Source: Burkholderiaceae bacterium (GTDB taxonomy: Bacteria; Pseudomonadota; Gammaproteobacteria; Burkholderiales; Burkholderiaceae_E). From it: DNA of 64,000 bases. Below, piece by piece: positions 13,197 through 47,374 of this stretch. Positions within the stretch are counted from its first letter, which is position 1, and each line of letters opens with the position of its first letter. A model generated the notes under the pieces. It searched no databases and had not been told where the DNA came from. It was given only the letters and a program-made list of their open reading frames with translations. The position numbers and the translations under genes are program-made. The DNA lies in assembly GCA_019635275.1 (NCBI GenBank), contig JAHBZV010000003.1, positions 1-64,000 on the forward strand, written 5' to 3'.

Positions 13197-13616
13197 ATGC
13201 CCAGCCTGAAAGGCACGAAGACCCACCAGAACCTGAAGGACGCCTTCGCGGGCGAGAGCCAGGCGAACCGTCGCTACCTGTACTTCGCAAACAAGGCCGA
13301 CGTGGAAGGCCAGCCTGAAGTCGCCGCGCTGTTCCGCTCGACCGCCGAAGGCGAGACCGGCCACGCGCACGGCCATCTCGACTACCTGGCCGAAGTCGGC
13401 GACCCGGCCACCGACCTGCCGATCGGCACGTCGCAGGCCAACCTGAAGTCGGCCGTCGCCGGCGAGACGCACGAGTACACCGACATGTACCCGGGCATGG
13501 CCAAGGCTGCCCGCGACGAAGGCTTCGACGAGATCGCCGACTGGTTCGAGACGCTGGCCAAGGCCGAGCGCTCGCACGCGAACAAGTTCGCGAAGGCCCT
13601 CGAGTCGCTGGCCTGA
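13197..13616 (+). CDS. Rubrerythrin, single-domain (diiron, no rubredoxin domain)
   Basis: The 139-residue ferritin-like protein probably acts as a peroxidase in the cytoplasm. The diiron ligands are seen as paired ExxH-type helices: FAGESQANRRYLYF (Glu near 19), EGETGHAHGHL (ExxH near 51-54), AGETHEYTDMYP (Glu near 84-87) and LAKAERSHANKF (ExxH near 122-125). The C-terminal rubredoxin domain of classical rubrerythrin is absent, so the electron donor must be another protein; the Fe-S oxidoreductase encoded next is the obvious candidate. The ribosome site AGGAG lies before the ATG at 13197. A terminator follows, so the downstream genes may be partly read-through. Confidence 0.92.
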   Translation: MPSLKGTKTHQNLKDAFAGESQANRRYLYFANKADVEGQPEVAALFRSTAEGETGHAHGHLDYLAEVGDPATDLPIGTSQANLKSAVAGETHEYTDMYPGMAKAARDEGFDEIADWFETLAKAERSHANKFAKALESLA

Positions 13617-13670
13617 ACGAAGCGGGCCGGCCGGCGGCAGGTGCGCCGGATCCGGCCTGCGACCGGCGCG

Positions 13671-13695
13671 AGGGGAGCTCCAGGGCTCCCCTTTT
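13671..13695 (+). terminator. Intrinsic terminator after rubrerythrin
   Basis: Stem AGGGGAGC / GCTCCCCT with loop TCCAGG is followed by TTTT. Position 55 bp after the rubrerythrin stop and 58 bp before the next ATG suggests partial termination, giving more rubrerythrin than the following proteins. Confidence 0.75.
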
Positions 13696-13752
13696 CATTC
13701 CCCTGCGGCGCGCCCTGCCCGGCCCGCCCGACCCGCTGAGGCGAGAACGACG

Positions 13753-15117
13753 ATGACTGCACGCGAAGGTTCGCTCGAAGCCCCGACCCGCCACCCGCTC
13801 GACTGGAGAAACCCCGAGTTCTTCGACGAGACGAAGGCGCTCGACGAGATGGAGCGCGTCTTCGACATCTGCCACGGCTGCCGGCGCTGCCTGAGCCTGT
13901 GCAACGCGTTCCCGACGCTGTTCGACCTGGTCGACGAATCCTCCAGCGGCGAGGTCGACGGAGTGGACCGCAAGGACTACTGGAAGGTCGTCGACCAGTG
14001 CTACCTGTGCGACGTCTGCTACATGACGAAGTGCCCGTACGTGCCGCCGCACGTCTGGAACGTCGACTTCCCGCACCTGATGCTGCGCGGCAAGGCGATC
14101 CAGTTCCGGCAGGGTACGCCGACGCGCTTCCGCGACAAGCAGCTGTCGTCGACCGACCGCAACGGCACGCTGGCCGGCATTCCGGTGGTGGTCCAGGTCG
14201 TCAACAAGCTCAGCCACAACAAGGCGGTGCGCAAGGTCGTCGAGAACACGCTGGGCGTGCACCGCGATGCCTGGCTGCCCCCGTTCACCAGCGACAAGTT
14301 TCGTTCGTACGCGGCGCCGTCGAAGGCCCACCCGGTGCGCGACGGCGAGCGCACACCCGGAAAGGTCGCGATCTACGCGACCTGCTACGTCAACTACAAC
14401 GAACCCGGCATCGGCCACGACCTGGTCAAGGTGCTCGACCACAACGAGATCCCGTACGTGCTGGCCGACAAGGAAGCCTGTTGCGGGATGCCCAAGCTCG
14501 AACTCGGCGACCTGGAGTCGGTCGCCGCGCTGAAGGAGAAGAACATCCCGGCGCTCGCCAGGCTCGCGCGCGCGGGTTACGCGATCCTCGCCCCGATCCC
14601 GTCGTGCGCGCTGATGTTCAAGCAGGAACTGCCGATGATGTTCCCGGACGACGCGGACGTGAAGGCGGTGCAGGAGGCGATGTTCGACCCGTTCGAGTAC
14701 TTCGTGCTGCGCGCGAAGGACGGGCTGCTCAAGACCGACTTCAGCGCCCCGCTCGGCAACGTCTCGTACCACATCGCCTGCCACCTGCGGGTGCAGAACG
14801 TGGGCCAGAAGACGCGCGAGATGCTGCAGATGGTGCCGGGCACGAACGTCAACACGATCGAGCGATGCTCGGGGCACGCCGGCACCTGGGGCGTGAAGAA
14901 GGAGTTCCACGAGATCGCGATGAAGATCGGCAAGCCGGTGTTCCGCCAGATGGGCGACCACCCCGGCGGCGAGCCGAACTGGATCGCCTCCGACTGCCAG
15001 TTGGCCGGCCATCACATCGAACAGGGGATGACCGAAGCCGGGCGCACGGTGGAGGGAAAGCTCGCCCACCCGCTGACGCTGCTGCGGATGGCTTACGGAC
15101 TGAAGGGAACGCTCTGA
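13753..15117 (+). CDS. Heterodisulfide reductase-related Fe-S oxidoreductase (GlpC/HdrD-like)
   Basis: The 454-residue protein has two [4Fe-4S] ferredoxin-type motifs, CHGCRRCLSLC (about residues 39-49) and CYLCDVCYMTKCP (about 83-95), then two CCG-type cysteine domains: ATCYVNYNEPG...ACCGMP (about 214-250) and CHLRVQNVG...RCSGHAG (about 343-380, with CSG in place of CCG). This is the layout of HdrD/GlpC-type electron-transfer proteins. No membrane segment is seen, so it is likely cytoplasmic. It sits between rubrerythrin and a DUF3501 protein; that three-gene set suggests it passes electrons to rubrerythrin. Its stop shares one base with the next start (TGATG). The substrate is unknown. Confidence 0.85.
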   Translation: MTAREGSLEAPTRHPLDWRNPEFFDETKALDEMERVFDICHGCRRCLSLCNAFPTLFDLVDESSSGEVDGVDRKDYWKVVDQCYLCDVCYMTKCPYVPPHVWNVDFPHLMLRGKAIQFRQGTPTRFRDKQLSSTDRNGTLAGIPVVVQVVNKLSHNKAVRKVVENTLGVHRDAWLPPFTSDKFRSYAAPSKAHPVRDGERTPGKVAIYATCYVNYNEPGIGHDLVKVLDHNEIPYVLADKEACCGMPKLELGDLESVAALKEKNIPALARLARAGYAILAPIPSCALMFKQELPMMFPDDADVKAVQEAMFDPFEYFVLRAKDGLLKTDFSAPLGNVSYHIACHLRVQNVGQKTREMLQMVPGTNVNTIERCSGHAGTWGVKKEFHEIAMKIGKPVFRQMGDHPGGEPNWIASDCQLAGHHIEQGMTEAGRTVEGKLAHPLTLLRMAYGLKGTL

Positions 15118-15716
15118 TGGAAGCAACGAAGATGGGAAAAGTGACCCGTGAATCGCTGATGACGCTCGAGGCCTACGCGAAGGCGAGGCCCGAGTTCCGG
15201 CGCAAGGTGCTCGAGCACAAGAAGAACCGCAAGGTGGCGCTGGGCGCGCACGTGACGCTGTTGTTCGAGGACGAGCTCACCGTGCGCTACCAGATCCAGG
15301 AGATGCTGCGCATCGAGAAGATCTTCGAGGAGGAAGGCATCGAACACGAGCTCGAGGCCTACAACCCGTTGATCCCCGACGGCCGCAACTTCAAGGCGAC
15401 GATGCTGATCGAGTACGACGACGTCGAGGTGCGGCGCCGCGAGCTGGCGAGGCTCAAGGGCATCGAGGACCGGCTCTGGGTGCAGGTCGAGGGCGCGCCG
15501 CGTGTGTTCGCGATCGCCGACGAGGACCTCGAACGCGAGAACGAGGAAAAGACTTCGGCGGTACACTTCGTGCGGTTCGAGCTCTCCGACGACATGGCCG
15601 CCGCCCTCCGGCGAGGCGCCACGTTGTCGGTCGGCGTCGATCACGAGAACTACCGCGCCGAGGCGAGCCCGCTGCCGGACGCGGTGCGCGCCGCGCTGGT
15701 CGCCGACCTCGCCTGA
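15117..15716 (+). CDS. DUF3501 family protein
   Basis: The 199-residue soluble protein begins MEATKMGKVTRESLMTLEAY and contains the family's FEDELTVRYQIQEMLRIEKI (in part) near residues 51-70 and VHFVRFELSDDM near 150-161. The family has no known function. It is rich in Glu and Arg with no cysteine motif or membrane segment. The start overlaps the Fe-S oxidoreductase stop by one base, so the two are made together. By context it is an accessory of the rubrerythrin/Fe-S oxidoreductase redox system. Confidence 0.85.
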   Translation: MEATKMGKVTRESLMTLEAYAKARPEFRRKVLEHKKNRKVALGAHVTLLFEDELTVRYQIQEMLRIEKIFEEEGIEHELEAYNPLIPDGRNFKATMLIEYDDVEVRRRELARLKGIEDRLWVQVEGAPRVFAIADEDLERENEEKTSAVHFVRFELSDDMAAALRRGATLSVGVDHENYRAEASPLPDAVRAALVADLA

Positions 15717-15762
15717 GAGGCGGCCCGCGGCGCGAGAACCGATCGCTCACACGGAACGTCCC

Positions 15763-16893
15763 ATGCCCGGCCTGCGCCCCGAAGTCGATCCCGACGGCCT
15801 CCTCGAATACTCGGTGGTGTACACCGATCGCACGCTCAACCACATGTCGCGCAGGTTCCAGGGCGTCATGCGCGACATCGCCGCCGTGCTGAAGGAGGCC
15901 TACCGCGCGAGATCGGCGATCGTGGTGCCCGGCAGCGGCACCTTCGGCATGGAGGCGGTGGCGCGACAGTTCGCGACCGGCCACAAGGCGCTGGTGATCC
16001 GCAATGGCTGGTTCAGCTACCGCTGGACGCAGATCTTCGAGATGGGCAGCATTCCGTCGGCGTCGATCGTCCTCAAGGCGCGTCCCGTCGAGCCGGGGCA
16101 CCAGGCGCCGTTCGCGCCGCCGCCGATCGACGAGGTCGTCGCCGCGATCGAGCGCGAGCGCCCCGGGCTGGTGTTCGCCCCGCACGTCGAGACCGCGTCG
16201 GGGATGATCCTTCCGGAGGCCTATCTGCGGGCGGTCGCGGCAGCGACGCACGCGGTCGGCGGCATGTTCGTGCTCGACTGCATCGCCTCCGGGGCGATCT
16301 GGGTCGACATGGCCGCCCTGGGCGTCGACGTGTTGATCAGCGCGCCGCAAAAGGGCTGGAGCGGGCCGGCGTGCTGCGCGCTGGTGATGCTCGGCGAGCG
16401 GGCCCGCGAGCGAATCGACCACACGACGAGCACCAGCTTCGCCTGCGACCTGCGCAAGTGGCTGCAGATCATGGAGACCTACGAGGGCGGCGGCCACGCG
16501 TACCACGCGACGATGCCCACCGAGTCGCTCGTGCGGGTGCGCGACGCGATGCAGGAGACGCAGCGCTACGGTCTCGAGCGCGCGCGCGCCGAGCAGCAGG
16601 AACTCGGCGACAAGGTCCGCGCGATGCTCGCCAGCCGCGGCGTGCGCAGCGTCGCCGCCCCGGGCTTCGACGCGCCCGGCGTGGTGGTCGGCTACACCGA
16701 TGACCCGGACGTCCATTCGGGCCGCAAGCTGCTCGCGCAGGGCCTGCAGATCGCGGCCGGCGTGCCGCTGCAGTGCGACGAGCCGGCCGATTTCCGCAGC
16801 TTCCGCATCGGGCTGTTCGGGCTCGACAAGCTGCAGAACGTCGATCGGACGGTGCGGCTGCTCGACACGGCGTTCGCTCACTCGATGGGCTGA
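15763..16893 (+). CDS. Class V aminotransferase (alanine-glyoxylate type)
   Basis: The 376-residue PLP enzyme has the class V layout: substrate-side GSGTFGMEAVARQF near residues 50-63, the cofactor Asp in FVLDCIASGAIWVDM near 168, and the Schiff-base lysine in ISAPQKGWSGP, Lys197. The C-terminal small domain has FRIGLFGLDKLQNVDRTV. The nearest functional group is alanine/serine-glyoxylate or phosphonate-type aminotransferases; the substrate is not shown. It starts at an ATG at 15763, 46 bp after the DUF3501 gene, and could be read from the same transcript. A 325-bp inverted-repeat element follows its stop. Confidence 0.85.
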   Translation: MPGLRPEVDPDGLLEYSVVYTDRTLNHMSRRFQGVMRDIAAVLKEAYRARSAIVVPGSGTFGMEAVARQFATGHKALVIRNGWFSYRWTQIFEMGSIPSASIVLKARPVEPGHQAPFAPPPIDEVVAAIERERPGLVFAPHVETASGMILPEAYLRAVAAATHAVGGMFVLDCIASGAIWVDMAALGVDVLISAPQKGWSGPACCALVMLGERARERIDHTTSTSFACDLRKWLQIMETYEGGGHAYHATMPTESLVRVRDAMQETQRYGLERARAEQQELGDKVRAMLASRGVRSVAAPGFDAPGVVVGYTDDPDVHSGRKLLAQGLQIAAGVPLQCDEPADFRSFRIGLFGLDKLQNVDRTVRLLDTAFAHSMG

Positions 16894-17320: not shown

Positions 17321-18019
17321 TCAGCCGAGCAGCCGACCCAGCGCCGCGTCGATCGCCTGCGCCCAGTCGTCGGGGCCGAGCCGGTCGGCGCCCGGCGCCT
17401 CGTCGCAGGCCGCCGTCAGGCGATCGAGTTGCGCGGCATCGTCCGGGGCGCCGAGCGCGTCGCAGAGCAGCCGCCAGTCGGGCCGCGACACCAGCGTGCC
17501 CGCCGAGAGCGCGACGCCGGTGCGCCGGCGCTGCTGCGCGAGCCCGGTGAGCTTGCGCCCCGCTGCGTCGACCACCTCCCACGGCGACAGGGCGCCGAAG
17601 CACGCCCAGCGCAACGTCGCCGCACCGGGCGCGAGCCCTGCTTCGCGAAGCCGTTGCGGCTCGACCGCGCGGGCCTCGATGCCGGTCTCGCGCATCAACC
17701 GCACGTGCAGTTCGCCGAGCCAGCGATAGCTCGCGACCAGGCTCTCGCCCAGCAGCGGGTCGTCGGGCGCGAGCACGACGCTCACGCCGATCATCCACGG
17801 ACCGGCGAGCACCGCACCGCCCCCCGAAGGGCGCACCGATACGTCGATGCCCGGTGCGGCCCGTCGGCCGACCTCCGCGTGCAGCGCGCGTTGCGAGCAC
17901 CCGAGCACGATCTCGGCCGCCGGGTACCGCCAGACCCGCCACTGCGCCCGCTCGACGGGCGCCGCGAGCGCCTCGGCGACCCAGGCGTGCTCGTCGGCGA
18001 TCGTCGCCTCGGCCCGCAT
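17321..18019 (-). CDS. Lipoyl/octanoyl attachment enzyme (BPL/LplA/LipM fold)
   Basis: The 232-residue protein would attach lipoate or octanoate to a lipoyl domain. It has RPSGGGAVLAGPW (about residues 63-75), the lipoate-protein ligase core motif, and WACFGALSPWEVV followed by GRKLTGLAQQRRRTG. The lysine (about 156) is the one conserved in the fold. Cys140 stands where LipM/LipL octanoyltransferases carry their catalytic cysteine, so it may be a cysteine-type transferase and not an ATP-dependent ligase. Its ATG follows the lipoyl-protein stop with no gap, so the two are coupled, and this protein is the likely modifier of that carrier. Confidence 0.82.
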   Translation of the reverse strand: MRAEATIADEHAWVAEALAAPVERAQWRVWRYPAAEIVLGCSQRALHAEVGRRAAPGIDVSVRPSGGGAVLAGPWMIGVSVVLAPDDPLLGESLVASYRWLGELHVRLMRETGIEARAVEPQRLREAGLAPGAATLRWACFGALSPWEVVDAAGRKLTGLAQQRRRTGVALSAGTLVSRPDWRLLCDALGAPDDAAQLDRLTAACDEAPGADRLGPDDWAQAIDAALGRLLG

Positions 18020-18271
18020 TCAGCCCGATTCGCGCAGCGTGCCGATCGGCGCGCCGCGCGCGAAGGTCTCTCCGGCCGCCACCAGGATGCGCTCGAGGAC
18101 GCCGTCGGCAGGTGCCGGCACCTCGATCGTGGTCTTGACCAGCACCACCGACGCCACCGGCTGGCCGGCGCGCACCGCGGCGCCTTCGCCGACCAGCCAT
18201 CGATCGACCAGCGCCTCGGTGCCCTCCTCGACGTCCGTCCACGCGGCGTCGTCGAGCGTGATCGCCGTCAT
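18020..18271 (-). CDS. Stand-alone lipoyl-domain carrier protein (83 aa)
   Basis: The 83-residue protein is a single biotinyl/lipoyl domain: WLVGEGAAVRAGQPVASV forms the first half and VPAPADGVLERILVAAGETF the second, with the modified lysine Lys46 at the hairpin turn (SVVLVKTTIEVPAP). No E2 acyltransferase or E3-binding domain follows; the gene stops right after the domain. The start ATG overlaps the E1-beta stop (ATGA) and the stop abuts the attachment-enzyme start. It would carry the acyl group made by E1. A free carrier instead of a domain fused to E2 is unusual for an oxoacid dehydrogenase operon. Confidence 0.85.
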   Translation of the reverse strand: MTAITLDDAAWTDVEEGTEALVDRWLVGEGAAVRAGQPVASVVLVKTTIEVPAPADGVLERILVAAGETFARGAPIGTLRESG

Positions 18272-19308
18272 GCGGGCATCGCCTGCGCGAAGGGCGCGCG
18301 GCACAGCGCGCGGCCGGCCTCGACGATCGACTCGACCTGCGGGATGACGAACCGCTCGAGCGGACGGCTGTAGGGAATCGGCACGTCGGGCACGGCCAGT
18401 CGCTTGACGGGTGCGCGCAGCCGTACCGTGTCGAGGTTCTCGGCGACGATCGCCGCGATCTCGCCGCTCAGCCCGAAGCTCAGGTAGTCCTCGTCGGCCA
18501 CCAGCAGCCTGCCGGTCTTCGCGACCGACTTCAGCACGGCCTTGCGGTCGAGCGGCACCAGCGTGCGCAGGTCGATCACTTCGGCATCGATGCCGTCGCG
18601 CTCGAGTTCGACCGCGGCGAGCGCCGCCTTGTGCACCATCTGGCTGAGCGTCACGATCGTCAGGTCGCTGCCTTCGCGCACCACGCGCGCCTGGCCGAAC
18701 GGCAACGTGTACGGCTCGCTCGGCACATCGGTCGTGCTGCCTTCGAAGTAGGCCATCCACGGCAGGCCCATGATCCCCTTGTGGAACATGAACATCACCG
18801 GGTTGTCGTCGCGGATCGACTGGATCATCAGCCCTTTCGCATCGTAGGCGTTCGACGGAACGACCACTTTCAGCCCCGGCATGTGCGCGAAGGTGCCGAA
18901 CAGGCACTGCGAGTGCTGCGCGGCGTCGTTGTAGCCCCCGCCGACCGCGGTCATCAGCACCACCGGGAGCCGGAGGTTGCCGCCCGCCATGTAGGTGTTC
19001 TTGGCCATGTGGTTGTAGATCTGGTCCATGCAGACGCCGAAGAAGTCGACGAACATCAGTTCGGCGATCGGGCGCATGCCGGTCGCGGCCGCGCCGGTGG
19101 CCGCACCGATGAACGCCGTCTCCGAGATCGGCGTATCCATGATGCGGTCGGGTCCGAACTTGTCGAGCAGCCCGCCCGTCGCGCCGAAGATACCGCCGTA
19201 GCGCCCGATGTCCTCGCCCATCACGAAGACCGTGGGGTCGCGCTCCATTTCCTGGGCGATCGCCTCGGAGATCGCCTGCGCCATCGTCAATGCACGTGAT
19301 TCGCTCAT
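18268..19308 (-). CDS. 2-Oxoacid dehydrogenase E1 component, beta subunit (acetoin/pyruvate type)
   Basis: The 346-residue protein is the transketolase-like beta subunit of an alpha2-beta2 E1. Motifs: VFVMGEDIGRYGGIFG near residues 27-42, MDTPISETAFIGAATGAA near 57-74, RPIAELMFVDFF near 79-90, and a C-terminal transketolase domain with DLRTLVPLD and PIPYSRPLE. It pairs with the alpha subunit 27 bp upstream and overlaps the lipoyl protein by 4 bp. The sequence best resembles acetoin or branched-chain type E1 beta chains; the substrate is not fixed by sequence. Confidence 0.9.
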   Translation of the reverse strand: MSESRALTMAQAISEAIAQEMERDPTVFVMGEDIGRYGGIFGATGGLLDKFGPDRIMDTPISETAFIGAATGAAATGMRPIAELMFVDFFGVCMDQIYNHMAKNTYMAGGNLRLPVVLMTAVGGGYNDAAQHSQCLFGTFAHMPGLKVVVPSNAYDAKGLMIQSIRDDNPVMFMFHKGIMGLPWMAYFEGSTTDVPSEPYTLPFGQARVVREGSDLTIVTLSQMVHKAALAAVELERDGIDAEVIDLRTLVPLDRKAVLKSVAKTGRLLVADEDYLSFGLSGEIAAIVAENLDTVRLRAPVKRLAVPDVPIPYSRPLERFVIPQVESIVEAGRALCRAPFAQAMPA

Positions 19309-19335
19309 GATTGGTGTCTCCCGACGGTTGCGGTC

Positions 19336-20343
19336 TCAGACGAACAGGTCGGCCAGCGCATCGGCCGGCGCCGGGTACTCGGCGCTGCGCGCGAACGCGT
19401 AGGCTTCGTCGACGCGGGCCCGGGCACGCGCCTCGATCGCCGCGCGCTGGCTGTCGTCGAGCAGCTTCTGCGCCTTCAGCTGACCGGCCAGCCGCGGAAT
19501 CGGATCGTTGGCCCGCAGCTTCGCCACCTCGTCCTTGGGCCGGTAGACCTCGGCGTCTCCCTGGAAGTGGCCGAGGTACCGGTCGGTGCGTACCTCGATC
19601 AGCGTCGGCCCGCCGCCGCCGCGCGCGCGCTCCACCGCGGCGCCGGCAGCTTCCCAGACCTCGACCGCGTCGTTGTTCGCCACGTGCACGCCGGGCATCC
19701 CGTAGGCGACCGCGCGATCCGAGATCTTCGCGATCGACGCTGCGGCGGGCTTGGGCACCGAGATGGCCCAGTAGTTGTCTTCGCAGACGAAGATGACCGG
19801 CAGCTTCCACAGCGCCGCCAGGTTCAGCGACTCGTGGAACGACCCCTGGTTGGCGGCGCCCTCGCCGAAGAACGCCACCGCGACCCAGTCGCGACCCAGC
19901 TTCTTCGCGGCGAGCGCCGCGCCGCACGCGGGCGGGAGGCTCGCGCCGATGATCCCGCTGCAGCTGAACCGGTGCTCGGGGTCGAACAGGTGCATGTGAC
20001 CGCCCTTGCCCTTGCTCAGCCCGGCCGCCTTGCCGAACATCTCGGCGGTCATCCTGTCGAGCGGCACGCCCTTGGCGATCGCGAAGTGATGGGGCCGGTG
20101 CGTGCCGACGACCGTGTCCTCCTTCTTCAGGTGCGCGCAGACGCCCACCGCCACCGGCTCCTGGCCAGCCGACAGGTGCATCTCGCCCGGCACCGGCCCG
20201 GAGCCGATGTCGAAGGCCAGCCCCTTCTGGATCTTCGGCGGCAGCTTGCCCTCGAGGTAGACGTTGACCATCGTCTCCTCGTAGTGGCGGATCTCCACCA
20301 TCTTCTCGTACATCCAGAGCAGCGATTCGTTGCGGTCGCGCAT
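19336..20343 (-). CDS. 2-Oxoacid dehydrogenase E1 component, alpha subunit (acetoin/pyruvate type)
   Basis: The 335-residue TPP-binding subunit catalyses decarboxylation of a 2-oxoacid (or acetoin cleavage). The TPP motif runs from FFGEGAANQGSFHESLN to VIFVCEDNYWAIS (about residues 164-195), and HRPHHFAIAKG and GLSKGKGGHMH form the active-site region. The start at 20343 is backed by a strong ribosome site AAGGAGGAG. It is the first gene of E1-alpha/E1-beta/lipoyl protein/attachment enzyme. The leader sequence and hairpins between it and trpB2 suggest its own transcript. Neither E2 nor E3 is nearby, except lpdA 20 kb away in the 2-oxoglutarate cluster. Confidence 0.9.
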   Translation of the reverse strand: MRDRNESLLWMYEKMVEIRHYEETMVNVYLEGKLPPKIQKGLAFDIGSGPVPGEMHLSAGQEPVAVGVCAHLKKEDTVVGTHRPHHFAIAKGVPLDRMTAEMFGKAAGLSKGKGGHMHLFDPEHRFSCSGIIGASLPPACGAALAAKKLGRDWVAVAFFGEGAANQGSFHESLNLAALWKLPVIFVCEDNYWAISVPKPAAASIAKISDRAVAYGMPGVHVANNDAVEVWEAAGAAVERARGGGGPTLIEVRTDRYLGHFQGDAEVYRPKDEVAKLRANDPIPRLAGQLKAQKLLDDSQRAAIEARARARVDEAYAFARSAEYPAPADALADLFV

Positions 20344-20528: not shown

Positions 20529-21899
20529 TCAGGCCGGCTCGGGAACGCTCGGCAACCCGGCGAGCGCCATCGCCAGCTCCTGCTCGCTGTACGACTGGTC
20601 GGTCAGCGTGCCCGCGCTGTAGGCCATGTAGGCAGCCATGTCGAAGTGGCCGTGGCCGCACAGGTTGAACAGGATCGTCTCGGAGCGCCCTTCGCGCTTG
20701 CAGCGCAACGCCTCCTCGATCGCGCCCTTGACCGCGTGGTTCGCCTCCGGCGCCGGAAGGATGCCTTCGGAGCGGGCGAACTGGATGCCGGCAGCAAAGC
20801 ACTCCTTCTGGTGGTAGGCGACGGCCTCGATCAGGTTCAGCTCCTTCAGGTGCGAGACCAGCGGCGCCATGCCGTGATAGCGCAGGCCGCCGGCGTGGAA
20901 GCCGGGCGGCGTGAACGTGGAGCCGAGCGTGTGCATCTTCGCCAGCGGCGTCATGTGCCCCGTGTCGCCGAAGTCGTACGCGAACTTGCCGCGCGTGAGC
21001 GACGGGCAGGCGGCCGGCTCGACCGCGACGATCCGAGGCTTCGCGCCGCCGCGCAGTCCGTCGCCGATGAACGGGAAGGTGATGCCGGCGAAGTTCGAGC
21101 CGCCCCCGGTGCAGCCGACGATCACGTCGGGCCAGGCGTCCGCCATCTTCAGCTGCTCCATCGCTTCGAGGCCGACCACGGTCTGGTGCAGCAGCACGTG
21201 GTTGAGCACCGAGCCGAGCGCGTACTTGGTGTCGTCGTTCTTCGCGGCGACCTCGACTGCCTCGGAGATCGCGATGCCCAGGCTGCCCGGATGGTCCGGG
21301 CTCTTGGCCAGCACGCTGCGCCCGTAGTCGGTCTCGGTGGACGGCGACGGCAGGCAGCGCGCACCGTAGGACTCCATCAGCGCCCGGCGGTACGGCTTCT
21401 GGTCGTACGAGACGCGTACCTGGAACACGGTGACATCGATGCCGAACAGCGCGCCGGCGAACGCCAGCGACGAGCCCCACTGGCCGGCGCCGGTTTCCGT
21501 GCTCAGCCGCTTGATGCCGGCCTCGCGGTTGTAGAACGCCTGCGCGACCGCGGTGTTCGGCTTGTGGCTGCCCGCAGGGCTCACGCCCTCGTACTTGTAG
21601 AAGATCTTCGCCGGCGTGCCCAGCGCCTTCTCGAGGCGGTGGGCCCGAAACAGCGGGCTGGGCCGCCACAACCGATAGATGTCGCGAACCGGCTCGGGAA
21701 TGTCGATCTCGCGCTCGGTGGTGACCTCCTGCATGATCAGCGCCATCGGGAACAGCGGCGCGAGATCGTCCGGCCCCACGGGCTTCATCGTGCCCGGGTG
21801 CAGCACCGGGGCCAGCGGCTTCGGCAGGTCGGCCTGGATGTTGTACCAGCGCTTCGGAATCCGGCTCTCGTCGAGCAGGTACTTGGTCTGTTCGCCCAT
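20529..21899 (-). CDS. TrpB2-type tryptophan synthase beta-like protein
   Basis: The 456-residue PLP enzyme joins indole and serine to make tryptophan, or serves a related reaction. Length and the long N-terminus ([20 protein letters not shown]) mark it as TrpB2, not the usual TrpB1. PLP Lys113 is in [12 protein letters not shown], and the phosphate-binding loop [10 protein letters not shown] is near residue 270. No trpA is adjacent, which is normal for TrpB2. The ATG at 21899 has a GGGGGAG ribosome site. It lies 186 bp upstream of the E1 operon on the same strand, with hairpins between. Confidence 0.9.
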
Positions 21900-41729: not shown

Positions 41730-43184
41730 TCACATGTTGAGCGCGCGCTTGTCGGTCGCCGCGAGCGCGGCCTCGCGCAGGACCTCCGACATCGACGGAT
41801 GCGGGTGGCAGACACGGCCGATGTCCTCGGCCGACGCCTTGAACTCCATCGCCAGCGCGGCTTCCGCCACCAGGTCGGAGGCCGCCGCCGAGACGACGTG
41901 CACGCCGAGCACCTCGTCGGTTGCCGCGTCCGCCAGCACCTTGACGAATCCCTCGGGCGCTCCGACCCCCAGCGCGCGGCCGTTGATCGAGAACGGGAAC
42001 TGGCCCGCCTTGTACGCGCGCCCCTCGGCCTTGAGCTGCTCCTCGGTGCGGCCGACCCAGGCGATCTCGGGCGAGGTATAGATGACCCAGGGAATGCAGT
42101 TGTAGTCGATGTGCGGCTTCTGGCCGGCGATCAGCTCGGCCACCATCACGCCCTCGTCCTCGGCCTTGTGCGCGAGCATCGGGCCGCGCACCACGTCGCC
42201 GACGGCCCAGACGTTCGGAACCGCGGTCCGGCAGTGATCGTCGACCGGAATGAACCCGCGCTCGTCGACCGACAGGCCGATCGACTCGAGCCCCAGCCCG
42301 TCGGTGTTGGGCACGCGGCCGACCGACACGACCAGCCGGTCGCACTCGAGCACCTGCGCGGCGCCCTTGTCGTCGGTCCACTCGACCTTCACGCCCCGCT
42401 TGCCCGCGTGGACCGCGCCGAGCTTCACGCCGAGGTGGATCTTCAGCCCCTGCTTCGTGAGCAGCTTCCACGCCTCCTTCTGCACGCCCCCGTCCGTGGC
42501 CCCGAGGAAGGTGGGCAACGCCTCGAGGATCGTGACCTCGGCGCCCAGGCGACGCCACACCGAGCCCAGCTCGAGCCCGATCACGCCTGCCCCGATCACG
42601 CCGAGGCGCTTGGGCACCTCGGGGATGGCGAGCGCGCCCTCGTTGTCGCAGACCAGCTGGTTGTCGACCGGCACGCCGGGCAGGTGCCGTGCCTTCGAGC
42701 CGGTCGCGATGATCACGTTGACCGCGTCGACCAGCTGCGGGGCGCTCGCGGCCGCGCCTTCCCCGGCGTCGTCGAGCACCTCGATCCGGAACGCGCCGTC
42801 CTCGGCGCCGACGAAGCGCCCGTGGCCCTTGAGCCAGGCGATCTTGTTCTTGCGGAACAGGAACTCGACCCCCTTGGTCATCTTCGAGACGATCGCATCC
42901 TTGCGCGCCAGCATCTTCGCCAGGTCGAGCTTCACCCCTTCGACCGCGATTCCGTGCTCGCCGAGGTGGTGCCGGACCTTCTCGAACTCCTCGCTCGACC
43001 CGAGCAGCGCCTTCGACGGAATGCAGCCGACGTTCAGGCAGGTGCCGCCGAGCGCCCGCTCGCCCTTCGGGTTGCGCCACTTCTCGACGCAGGCGACCTT
43101 GAATCCGAGCTGCGCGGCGCGCACCGCGGCGATGTAGCCGCCCGGGCCCGCGCCGATCACGACGACGTCGTATGTCTGGGGCAT
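41730..43184 (-). CDS. lpdA: Dihydrolipoamide dehydrogenase (E3)
   Basis: The 484-residue flavoprotein re-oxidises the lipoyl group of 2-oxoglutarate dehydrogenase with NAD+. FAD motif [21 protein letters not shown] near residues 7-27 (seen in part), redox disulfide [13 protein letters not shown] near 46-58, NAD motif [15 protein letters not shown] near 195-209, and the C-terminal His-Glu base in [13 protein letters not shown] near 458-470. It is the third gene after sucA and sucB and could also serve the stand-alone lipoyl protein of the E1 operon. Confidence 0.95.
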
Positions 43185-43197
43185 CTCCGCGCGCTCC

Positions 43198-44487
43198 TCA
43201 GAGGTCCAGCAGCAGGCGCGACGGGTCCTCGAGCGCCTCCTTGATCGCGACGAGGAACAGCACCGCCTCGCGGCCGTCGATGATGCGATGGTCGTACGAC
43301 ACGGCCAGGTAGTTCATCGGCCTCACCACCACCTGGCCGTTCTCGACGACCGCGCGGTCTTTCGTCGCGTGCACGCCGAGGATCGCCGACTGCGGCGGGT
43401 TGATGATCGGCGTCGAAAGCATCGAGCCGAACACCCCGCCGTTGCTGATCGAGAACGTGCCCCCGGTCAGCTCCTCGATGCCGAGCTTGCCGTCCTGCGC
43501 GCGCTTGCCGAAGTCGGCGATCTGCTTCTCGACCTGCGCGAAGCTCATCTGGTCGGCGTTGCGGATCACCGGGACCACCAGGCCACGCGGCGACCCGACC
43601 GCGACGCCGATGTCGAAGTAGCCGTGGTAGACGATGTCGTTGCCGTCCACCGATGCGTTGACGACCGGATACTTCTTCAGTCCGTGAACGGCCGCCTTGA
43701 CGAAGAACGACATGAAGCCGAGCCGCACGCCGTGCTCCTTCTCGAAGCGCTCCTGGTAGCGCTTGCGAAGGTCCATCACCGGCTGCATGTTCACTTCGTT
43801 GAACGTCGTGAGGATGGCGTTGGTCGCCTGCGACTGCAGCAGTCGCTCGGCCACGCGCTGGCGCAGCCGCGACATCGGCACGCGCTGCTCGGGCCGGCCT
43901 TCGAGCAGCTTCGCGACGTCGAGCACCGGCCGCACCTCCGGCAGGCTGGCGGTGGGCACGCCCGTCGGGATCGCCGCAGGTGCCGGACGGGCGGCCGCCC
44001 CAGCCGCCGCGCCGAGGACGTCGCCCTTGGTGATACGGCCGTCGCGGCCCGTGCCCGCCACCTGCGACGGCATCAACCCGGCCTCGGCCATCAGCTTCGC
44101 TGCCGCCGGCATCGCCACGCCGCTCTTCGACCCCCCGCCGGCCGCCGGCCCGACCGCGCCGGCTGGCGCGGGCGCCTGCGCCGCGGCCGGTGCGGGCGCG
44201 GCCACTGCGGGCACGGCAGGCGCCGCTGCCGTCGCGCCTGCCTTCGCCTCGGGATCGATCATCGCGATCACCTCGCCGGCGACGACGGTGCTGCCGTCGC
44301 CCTTGAGGACCTGCGCCAGCACGCCCGCCGACGGCGCCGGAAGCTCGAGCACGACCTTGTCGGTCTCGATGTCGATGAGGTTTTCGTCGCGGGCCACGAG
44401 CTCGCCCACCTTCTTGTGCCACTGCAGCAGGGTTGCCTCGGCGACCGATTCCGACAGCTGCGGAACCCTGACTTCGATGAGAGCCAT
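43198..44487 (-). CDS. sucB: 2-Oxoglutarate dehydrogenase E2 (dihydrolipoyl succinyltransferase)
   Basis: The 429-residue E2 has one lipoyl domain with the modified Lys in [14 protein letters not shown] near residue 43, an Ala/Pro-rich linker, the E3-binding domain ([19 protein letters not shown] and [12 protein letters not shown], about 125-165), and the C-terminal acyltransferase domain ending [15 protein letters not shown], which carries the catalytic His and Asp. [20 protein letters not shown] is the usual SucB start. It lies between sucA and lpdA, with 28 and 13 bp gaps. Confidence 0.95.
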
Positions 44488-44515
44488 TTGCCTGTACTCC
44501 GGGGAGGAATTCGCT

Positions 44516-47374
44516 TCAGACCGATTTCTTCGCGCGCGAGCGGCCTTCGCCGAGCGCTGCGGCGATCAGCTCCTTCTGCTGCGCGTAGTGCTTGTCGTAG
44601 TAGCCGACCGCGGGCGACGCCGACGGCGCTCGCCCGGCGTAGCCGAGCTTCTGGCCGTCCTTGAGCGCCTCGGTGATGTGGTGCTGCACGTAGAACCAGG
44701 CGCCCTGGTTCTGGGGCTCGTCCTGGCACCAGACCACCTGCGTGGCGTTCGGGAACTTCCTGAGCTCGGCCTCGAACGCCTTGTGCGCGAACGGATAGAG
44801 CTGTTCGACACGCACCAGCGCGACGTCGTCGACGCCGCGTTCGCGGCGTGCGGCCAGCAGGTCGTAGTAGACCTTGCCGGTGCAGGCGACGACCCGCTTG
44901 ACCTTCTTCGGGTCCGCGCCGGCCGTCTCGCCGATCACCGTGCGGAACTCGCCGCGCGCGAGCTCGTCGAGCGAAGACACCGCGTCCTTGTTCCGCAGCA
45001 GCGACTTCGGCGTCATGATCACCAGCGGCTTGCGGAACATCCGGATCATCTGGCGCCGCAACAGGTGGAAGATCTGCGCCGGGGTGGTCGGCTGGCAGAC
45101 CTGCATGTTGTGCTCCGCGCACAGCTGCAGGAAGCGCTCGAGCCGCGCCGACGAGTGCTCGGGCCCCTGCCCCTCGTAGCCGTGCGGCAGCATCATCACC
45201 AGCCCGCAGGCACGTCCCCACTTGGTCTCGCCCGACGCGATGAACTGGTCGATGACCACCTGCGCGCCGTTGGCGAAGTCGCCGAACTGGGCCTCCCAGA
45301 TCACCAGCGTGTTGGGGTCGGACGACGCGTAGCCGTACTCGAAGCCGAGCACCGCCTCCTCGGAGAGCACCGAGTCGATGACGATGAATTGCCCCTGCTT
45401 GTCGGCGACGAACTGCAGCGGGATGTAGGCGCCCTGGTCCCACTTCTCGCGGTTCTGATCGTGCAGCACCGCGTGCCGGTGCGTGAACGTGCCGCGGCCC
45501 GAGTCCTGGCCCGACAGGCGCACGCCGAAGCCCGACGCGACCAGCGTCGCGAACGCCAGGTGCTCGCCCATGCCCCAGTCGAGCGGCAGGTCGCCGTCGA
45601 CCATGGCGCGCCGGTCGTTGATCACGCGCTCGACCAGCGGGTGCAGCTTGAACTCGGGTGGCACGGTCGTGATCCGCTCACCGAGCCGGCGCAGCTCGCC
45701 GATCGGCACGGCAGTGTCGGCGCTGTCGGTCCACTTGCGGTTGAGGAACGGCAGCCAGTCGACCGCGAACTTGCTCTTGAAGTTGGTGATGACCGGGTCG
45801 ATGGTGTGCTTGCCCTCGTCCATCGCCTTGCGGTAGCCGGCGACCATTGCCTCGGCATCGGACTCCTTGATGACCTCCTGGGCCACCAGCCTGTCGGCGT
45901 AGAGCTTGCGCGTGCCGGGATGCGCGGCGATCTTCTTGTACATCATCGGCTGCGTCATCGCCGGCGTGTCCTGCTCGTTATGCCCGAGCCGGCGGAAACA
46001 GACGATGTCGACCACGACGTCCTTGCGGAAGCGCTGCCGGAATTCCAGCGCCAGCTGCGTCGCGTAGACGACCGCCTCGGCGTCGTCGCCGTTCACGTGG
46101 AACACCGGCGCCTCGATCATCTTGACCACGTCGGTGCAGTAGATCGTCGAGCGGGTGTCCCTGGGGTCGGAGGTCGTGAAGCCGATCTGGTTGTTGATCA
46201 CGATGTGCACGGTGCCGCGCGTGCCATAGCCGCGCGTCTGGGCCAGGTTCAGCGTCTCCATGACGACACCTTGCCCCGCGAACGCCGCGTCGCCGTGCAC
46301 CAGCACCGGCAGCACGTGGTCGCCGTTGCGGTCGCCGCGGCGAACCATCCGCGCGCGGCACGACCCCTCGACGACCGGGTTGACGATCTCGAGGTGCGAA
46401 GGATTGAAGGCGAGCGACAGGTGAACCGGCCCTCCGGGCGTCGAGATGTCGCTCGAGAAGCCCTTGTGATACTTGACGTCGCCGCTCGGCAGGTCGTCGG
46501 CGTGCTGGCCCTCGAACTCCGCGAAGAGCTCCTTGGGCATCTTGCCCAGCGTGTTGACGAGCACGTTCAGCCGACCCCGGTGGGCCATGCCGATGACGAC
46601 CTCCTGGATGCCGAACTCGCCCGCCCGCGCGACCAGTTCGTCCATCGCGGCGATGAAGCTCTCGCCCCCTTCGAGCGAGAAGCGCTTCTGGCCGACGTAG
46701 CGGGTGTGGAGGTAGCGCTCGAGGCCTTCGGCGGCGGTGAGACGGTCGAGGATGCGCTTCTTCTTGTCGGTGCTGTAGCTGGGGCGCGCGCGCGTCGATT
46801 CGAGGCGCTCCTGGATCCAGCGCTTCTGCGCCTGGTCGCTGATGTACATGAACTCGGCGCCGATCGACCCGCAGTAGGTGTCGCGCAGCGCCTTGACGAT
46901 GTCGCGCAGCGGCGCGTTGTCGAAGCCGAAATAGGTGTTCGCCGCCGAGTAGATATTGGCGTGCTCGCCCTCGGTGAAGTCGTAGAACGCCGGCTCGAGC
47001 TCCGGGATCACCGGGCGCTCCTGGCGCTTGAGCGGATCGAGATCGGCCCAGCGCGAGCCGAGGTTGCGGTACGCGGCCACCAGCGACTGCACGAACACCT
47101 GCTTGCGGGCGGTCGCTGCGTCGCCGCCCATCATCCGCGGCTGCAGCGAGCCTTCCTTTGCTCGCTCGGCGAACGACTGCACGATCGGTGCATGCGCAAT
47201 GTCGCGCGTCTGCGGGCTGCCGTCGGCGGCCGGCACCGCCTGCATGCTGTCGAACCAGGTGCGCCACGCCTCGGGCACCGAGCCGGGATTGTTCAGGTAG
47301 CTCTCGTAGAGCTCCTCGACATACGGGGCATTGCCGCCGAACAGGTACGAGTTCGACTGGAACGCTTTCATCAT
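44516..47374 (-). CDS. sucA: 2-Oxoglutarate dehydrogenase E1
   Basis: The 952-residue TPP enzyme decarboxylates 2-oxoglutarate in the TCA cycle. The family N-terminus [21 protein letters not shown] (in part) is intact, [17 protein letters not shown] near residue 265-281 is an active-site motif, DFHPPARA-like Mg/TPP region is seen in [22 protein letters not shown] (in part), and the C-terminal domain has [13 protein letters not shown] and [16 protein letters not shown]. The ATG pair at 47374 follows AAGGTGAAG. It begins sucA-sucB-lpdA. No clear promoter was read in the 184 bp upstream. Confidence 0.95.

Follow-up and report, generated by a model that had tools for sequence, protein, structure and literature searches.

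The window analysed here is a stretch of 64,000 nucleotides at the start of contig JAHBZV010000003.1 of a Burkholderiaceae bacterium (assembly GCA_019635275.1), and on its minus strand, at positions 17,321-20,343, lie four genes in tandem. From first to last these encode; 1) E1-alpha and 2) E1-beta, the two subunits of a dehydrogenase E1 component; 3) an 83-residue protein that consists of a lipoyl domain, referred to as the carrier; and, 4) a single-domain protein of the LplA fold, referred to as LIG, which is a predicted lipoyl/octanoyl attachment enzyme. The gap between E1-alpha and E1-beta is 27 bp, E1-beta and the carrier overlap by 4 bp, and the carrier and LIG abut at 0 bp. A sequence-only reading of this DNA had named the same four products, with Lys46 in the carrier and overlaps of 4 bp and 0 bp, and had stated that E2 (the acyltransferase) and E3 (dihydrolipoyl dehydrogenase) are missing. 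Pfam matches above cut-off for all four proteins, together with conservation and structure models, bear out the identities, and the overlaps agree with the coordinates. A search with PF00198, the E2 acyltransferase family, gave no match within the operon, and neither an E2 nor an E3 gene is found among its four genes. In textbook 2-oxoacid dehydrogenases the lipoyl arm is carried on E2. The operon represents a split-E2 thiamine dehydrogenase in a variant that lacks E2, and consists of known parts in an unusual arrangement that is recurrent in other bacterial lineages.

The operon is a real feature and not a product of chance, because its orthologues in genome G006 are conserved (96, 96, 89 and 76% identity for E1-alpha, E1-beta, carrier and LIG, respectively) and ratios of non-synonymous to synonymous substitution (dN/dS; NG86, five genomes, 10 pairs each) are low, at 0.07-0.18 for E1-alpha and E1-beta, 0.15-0.49 for the carrier and 0.21-0.43 for LIG. 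Purifying selection acts on all four genes. A promoter and terminator scan was uninformative, with one promoter-like site (0.3 expected) that lies within E1-beta, and 0 terminators (1.4 expected).

Matches to PF00676, PF02779, PF02780 and NF006667 identify the first two products as a thiamine diphosphate (TPP)-dependent E1 of the heterotetrameric type, the assembly state being predicted. In a tree of E1-alpha plus E1-beta, from which L004 was dropped beforehand as its stretch is contained letter for letter in that of G006, the window genes fall within a clade of bootstrap 100. Its members come from Pseudomonadota, Rhodococcus and haloarchaea and combine E1-alpha and E1-beta with a free lipoyl protein, some of them having a free E2 as well; the free lipoyl protein is present in all 27 of the clade loci examined. 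The motifs HRPHH and GGHMH(L/I)FD are common to the 26 members with a readable E1-alpha (that of Aminobacter is a fragment and hence outside this count), where six acetoin-like reference E1s instead have HRGH and GGSMHIAD. In the rooted tree the sister group of the clade is a set of references among which a Caballeronia protein is annotated as acetoin dehydrogenase, at a join whose support value was not printed.

E1-beta orthologues, searched for at E<=1e-105 in genomes and E<=1e-110 in plasmids, occur in nine of 74 genomes of the family and six of 398 sampled genomes of the phylum, the window's own included. Matches in six of 385 sampled genomes of another class comprise two already known and one (G645, 53%) that falls outside the clade. 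Among plasmids 17 of 72,556 records matched, haloarchaea and Rhodococcus among them, and ten of these 17 loci were read. All ten have the lipoyl gene after E1-beta, and in nine it is followed by an annotated free 'subunit E2' of 210-271 residues; in five of these nine an attachment-enzyme-like gene comes after the free E2. The Rhodococcus operon has lipA, which supports lipoylation. It may be added that on plasmid p1 of Aminobacter niigataensis (L190) E1-alpha is only an 87-residue piece beside IS66 genes, and that the E1-beta, carrier, E2 and LIG-like genes there are open frames. The neighbours of the relatives (a glucose-methanol-choline oxidoreductase, Cupin_7, 2-keto-3-deoxy-6-phosphogluconate aldolase) were not seen to be common between lineages, and as they differ they point to no one substrate. 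In Haloferax volcanii, HVO_0669/HVO_0668 is described as the E1 pair most like acetoin dehydrogenase, with pyruvate and 2-oxoglutarate excluded and no substrate identified there (PMC8305020).

The sequence-only reading had suggested a search for any acyltransferase always found with the gene set, and the outcome is divided: a free E2 catalytic domain follows the carrier in 11 of the 27 clade loci in the tree, and 16, including the window, are without it. These 16 are nine Burkholderiaceae, G423, G441, G472, G807, G737, G647 and Haladaptatus halobius, and they do not form one clade. Approximately unbiased (AU) tests, in which groups were named after seeing the tree and 31 of the 36 rows were used (five more distant references dropped), rejected a single group of the 15 bacterial E2-less rows (p 2e-41) and of the six E2-less rows outside Burkholderiaceae (p 1e-37). 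On the same 31 rows the E2 state needs at least four changes on the E1 tree, be they losses or gains, and the bacterial E2-less loci sit at four places, namely the window's family, G423, G441/G472 and the G807 group. G441/G472 are joined with five E2-bearing loci at bootstrap 100; for the nodes that place them deeper among loci with an E2, support is weak (68 and 74 in the full tree, 47 and 56 in the 31-row tree).

A genome-wide search with PF00198 found two E2s in each of the near-complete genomes G441, G472, G807 and G737, with frames of 417-517 residues and none free, and three each in G423 and G647; in G423, which is also near-complete, every E2 found likewise has a frame of at least 417 residues. 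The third E2 of G647 (L265) was considered as a free E2 and rejected, as it is a 393-residue, pyruvate dehydrogenase-like protein with a lipoyl domain of its own and adjoining E1 genes. In a quick E2 tree L265 has a long branch and falls close to the free E2s, and no other E2 of these genomes joins the free E2s of Pseudomonadota and haloarchaea; the free E2 of Rhodococcus lies apart, near the sucB group. Haladaptatus halobius is E2-less at the level of the locus only and stands outside the genome-wide search.

The bacterium's own genome has three E2s, all of them full-length (Table 1), and in the quick E2 tree not one of them groups with the relatives' free E2s. A hidden dedicated E2, the finding that the sequence-only reading had said would speak against it, was accordingly not found in this assembly, which is 86.8% complete. 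The housekeeping cluster at 41,730-47,374 is a possible donor of E2 and E3 in trans. As to lipoate metabolism, LipB and LipA are adjacent in the genome (L119; TIGR00214 and TIGR00510, over cut-off) and GcvH is at C113. In the E2-less G807, G737 and G647 (genus g144) gcvH lies about 5-6 kilobases (kb) from the E1-carrier-LIG genes, and in G807 the identities of GcvH and GcvPA were confirmed. Elsewhere in the window's genome, L266 (C75:82000-95000) has a 324-residue E1-beta on a contig without a PF00198 match, with neighbours that by eye resemble 4-alpha-glucanotransferase/glycogen-debranching genes, and a further E1-beta gene is on C108.

Table 1. Features of the operon, its surroundings and the E2 genes of the same genome (window positions unless a contig is named).
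Feature	Position	Strand	Evidence or remark
E1-alpha, TPP-dependent, 335 residues	19336-20343	-	PF00676, E 7.6e-76; motifs HRPHH and GGHMHLFD
E1-beta, 346 residues	18268-19308	-	NF006667, 343.7 bits (cut-off 321); PF02779 and PF02780
Free lipoyl carrier, 83 residues	18020-18271	-	PF00364, 44.6 bits (cut-off 22.1); Lys46 codon 18134-18136
LIG, predicted lipoyl/octanoyl attachment enzyme, 232 residues	17321-18019	-	PF21948, 47.5 bits (cut-off 27)
LIG Cys140 codon	17600-17602	-	sequence
LIG Lys156 codon	17552-17554	-	sequence
TrpB-like pyridoxal phosphate enzyme, directly upstream	20529-21899	-	NF009057, 736.8 bits; context, not shown as part of the system
2-oxoglutarate dehydrogenase E1	44516-47374	-	NF006914, 1380 bits, over cut-off
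SucB (2-oxoglutarate dehydrogenase E2), the window's only E2	43198-44487	-	NF004309, 614 bits, over cut-off
E3, dihydrolipoyl dehydrogenase	41730-43184	-	TIGR01350, 530.9 bits, over cut-off
Second E2 of the genome, 462 residues	contig C86, about 148-150 kb		adjoins AceE and an E3-like gene
Third E2 of the genome, 470 residues	contig C1		beside E1 genes grouping with an annotated branched-chain reference
Rubrerythrin, GlpC-like CCG iron-sulfur protein, DUF3501, class-V aminotransferase	13197-16893	+	block convergent with LIG

Lys46 of the carrier is invariant in all 26 aligned carriers and in a 27th (G002) that was checked separately. In the structure model (predicted local distance difference test, pLDDT, 96.8) it lies in the turn that links strands 38-44 and 47-52, and among solved structures E2 lipoyl domains and biotinyl domains are closest in fold. 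Sequence matches are to PF00364 and E2 lipoyl domains, the best NCBIfam match being the acetoin E2 model at 44.7 bits (cut-off 307). Biotin carboxyl carriers have an MKM-type biotinylation motif. The window carrier reads LVKTT around Lys46, and Met flanks the lysine in none of the 26 aligned carriers; a biotin carrier was rejected on the lack of such a motif and the presence of lipA in the Rhodococcus operon. A GcvH-like or LbpA identity was also rejected, as the sole match of the GcvH model in the genome is the protein at C113. Single lipoyl-domain proteins in archaea have been noted before (PMC3904984). A further locus, L005, whose lipoyl stretch is 45% identical, is not a relative and adjoins what by eye is an apparent 2-oxoglutarate dehydrogenase E1; it and L004 are the two read of 43 lipoyl-stretch matches, and several of the others are likely ordinary E2 lipoyl domains.

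LIG has a single catalytic domain, PF21948 being the only family matched, and only two PF21948 proteins were found in the genome. In its structure model (pLDDT 92.5) it resembles the catalytic domains of lipoate-protein ligases. Eight positions, Cys140, Arg155 and Lys156 among them, do not vary across the 33 aligned LIGs, with or without a carrier (alignment A2, which leaves out G016, G053 and four g2 LIG loci). The sequence-only reading had taken Cys140 as a sign of LipM-like transfer chemistry, and here the profile evidence points rather to LipL-like chemistry. The best solved match of the joint profile A2 is BH3822, which we take to be LipL, at 4.8e-23, with lipoate ligases ranking lower, and the two Cys residues are paired in the printed alignment. 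The profile of the relatives' ligases reaches 1.1e-29 with BH3822, and these ligases reach up to 6.2e-21 with the GcvH-dependent octanoyltransferase model; for the window subfamily (A5) the values are 4e-6 for BH3822 versus about 1e-4 for ligases. MAFFT aligns Cys140 in all rows, and in the A5/A6 profile comparison the Cys falls in a gapped stretch. At 0.01 the GcvH-dependent octanoyltransferase model is matched by 18 of the 33 LIGs and the LipL model by 12, with every score well under the curated cut-off; with the former model the best of the 10 members shown reaches 75.1 bits (cut-off 400). Five NCBIfam families match A2 and none of them is named LipM, although it is unchecked whether the library holds a LipM model. 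PMC10332631 states that Proteobacteria contain only LipB, never LipM. LIG looks more like a diverged LipL-like transferase than like LipM, clearly for the relatives and weakly for the window's own sequence.

The sequence-only reading had further called LIG the operon's own attachment enzyme. As far as position goes this holds, since in 22 of 23 bacterial loci with a carrier the gene following either the carrier or the free E2 is LIG, but it fails as to exclusive use. In the genus (18 genomes) LIG is present in 17 genomes and E1 plus carrier in eight. The slot for E1 and carrier is empty in eight of the 17 LIG-bearing members, where LIG comes directly after the TrpB-like gene (G016 is cut by a contig end), and seven of the eight genomes with E1 and carrier have E1-alpha, E1-beta and carrier in that slot, flanked by the TrpB-like gene and LIG; in G011 the four genes are at another place. 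In G053, which belongs to another genus, the setting of the four genes is different and the contig is short, ending within LIG. When E1 plus carrier is mapped on a tree built from nine neighbouring proteins of 15 genomes, G016 left out, at least five changes are needed, a parsimony count that does not separate losses from gains. Since LIG persists whether or not the E1/carrier block is there, it must do other work too, and from its observed presence in carrier-less genomes we infer that it also acts outside the operon. Genera g2 and g6 have lone LIGs (L096, L094, L095 and related loci), around which neither E1 nor a carrier was seen; in L096 (g2) the lone LIG is beside what by eye is a cysteine-synthase-like gene, and G022 (g6) has two LIG copies.

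We propose, with a probability of about 0.45, that the operon encodes an E2-less split-E2 dehydrogenase in which the carrier is lipoylated by way of LIG, loaded by E1 and unloaded by housekeeping E2 and E3. LipB and LipA, whose genes are present, would lipoylate housekeeping proteins, GcvH among them, and LIG would transfer octanoyl or lipoyl from GcvH, or from a different lipoyl protein, onto Lys46 of the carrier. As its family suggests, a predicted E1-alpha2-beta2 assembly would decarboxylate or cleave a 2-oxo or acetoin-like substrate and reductively acylate the carrier. A housekeeping E2 core might then unload the carrier to coenzyme A (CoA), in place of the relatives' free E2, and the shared dihydrolipoyl dehydrogenase would re-oxidise it. 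The acceptor is the least certain part of this scheme. A housekeeping E2 in trans is favoured on two grounds: a free E2 domain serves the relatives, and human DHTKD1, an E1, reportedly works in complex with DLST and E3. DLST is the E2 of the 2-oxoglutarate complex, and the likeness is therefore of one E1 acting with the E2 of another complex; the difference is that the window E1 has a free carrier, which DHTKD1 is not known to have.

Several points weigh against this proposal. If a housekeeping E2 were sufficient, E1 could use the lipoyl domain of that E2, which would make a free carrier unnecessary. At the completeness of the window assembly, the absence of a dedicated E2 from the genome is not proven. 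The carriers of the window clade have lost the Glu five residues before Lys46 (residue 41), which is absent in all nine of them and kept in all 18 other clade carriers, and this may alter recognition by attachment enzymes. For LIG, LplAB is weakly matched by 19 of 33 sequences at 0.01, compared with 18 for the GcvH-dependent octanoyltransferase and 12 for LipL; the window LIG scores 13.8 bits with the GcvH-dependent octanoyltransferase (cut-off 400) and 30.8 bits with LplAB (cut-off 550); and Foldseek with the LIG model places the Thermoplasma acidophilum lipoate ligase first and BH3822 eleventh (TM score 0.44). Lone LIGs look less constrained (dN/dS 0.26-0.73, 6 pairs). Finally, E1 and carrier are patchy in the genus.

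One alternative is that the carrier passes acyl groups or electrons to a non-CoA acceptor, by transfer to a thioester or thiol, by hydrolysis to the free acid or to a redox partner for which the dihydrolipoyl form is enough, so that no E2 is needed. The four bacterial places of E2-less loci, at which carrier and LIG stay, are in its favour, as are the near-complete genomes with two long E2s each and no free E2. However, no conserved candidate acceptor gene was seen beside the E2-less loci read by eye, and in the relatives an E2 catalytic domain accompanies these genes, an indication that CoA is the acceptor as a rule; we regard this alternative as rather unlikely. We also hold it unlikely that a lipoyl-dependent E1 operates here with no acyltransferase at all and a non-CoA acceptor, E2 having been lost or never gained at several places while the carrier and a LipL-like enzyme were kept. 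If true, this would be a lipoate-dependent route beyond LbpA and beyond the five complexes named in PMC6067878. All 27 clade loci use a free carrier, and the attachment enzyme stayed with it where E2 is missing, which makes it testable with four small proteins whether E2 is borrowed from a housekeeping complex or the carrier feeds something else.

It is improbable that the operon is a declining remnant which lost E2 first and is now losing E1 and carrier piecemeal: the repeated gains or losses in the genus and the eight empty slots between the TrpB-like gene and LIG would fit, but where present the E1 genes show strong purifying selection, with motifs intact, and the four genes occur in other settings in G011 and, with LIG cut, in G053. 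That LIG is an ordinary lipoate ligase or octanoyltransferase for other lipoyl domains, its position after the carrier being meaningless, is likewise doubtful, for although it is kept without E1 and carrier in eight genus members and in g2 and g6, where the aligned sequences retain Cys140 and Lys156, it follows the carrier or free E2 across distant lineages and G011 carries the four genes together elsewhere.

Among known systems the nearest are the split-E2 operons, for example on Phaeobacter inhibens pP78_a and Natrialba magadii pNMAG02, which by annotation have E1-alpha, E1-beta, a lipoyl protein and a short subunit E2, followed in bacteria by an attachment-enzyme-like gene or lipA. They share with the window the E1 clade, the gene order, the free carrier and, in the bacterial loci counted above, the terminal LIG; they differ in having the free E2 gene, which the window and 15 other loci lack. 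Acetoin dehydrogenase (AcoA/AcoB/AcoC/AcoL) is related through the sister group and the best NCBIfam match of the carrier, but the window lipoyl domain is unfused, its operon has no E3 and its E1-alpha motifs are those of the clade. Compared with a complete 2-oxoacid or acetoin complex, the E1 families are present, PF00198 is not encoded with E1, and E3 is in the genome outside the operon. Our literature search found no study of these operons, subscription papers on Haloferax dehydrogenase operons lying outside it.

LipL, which transfers from GcvH to E2 lipoyl domains, and LipM have been demonstrated in Firmicutes and Tenericutes, according to PMC10332631. Like LipL, LIG has a single domain with invariant Cys and Lys, and GcvH is present in the genome. 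Unlike LipL, LIG occurs beside LipB/LipA in Pseudomonadota, the window subfamily is diverged and the activity is predicted; these data suggest LipL-like transfer alongside LipB/LipA in this phylum. The sequence-only reading had also drawn a likeness to the free lipoate-binding proteins of sulfur oxidisers. This is apt in so far as LbpA of the sHdr sulfur oxidisers is likewise a free lipoyl protein of a single domain, encoded near an attachment enzyme, but LbpA (PMC6067878) is GcvH-like and lies among hdr-like genes, whereas the window carrier is E2-lipoyl-like and beside E1.

Of the surrounding genes, the TrpB-like gene adjoins LIG in 15 of the 17 LIG-bearing genus members and stays when E1 and carrier are absent; it was not seen in G011 or in G016, where the contig is cut. 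In the block on the other strand that is convergent with LIG (Table 1), rubrerythrin occurs in 13 of 16 genus loci and the GlpC-like protein and DUF3501 in 14 each, the aminotransferase being found in fewer.

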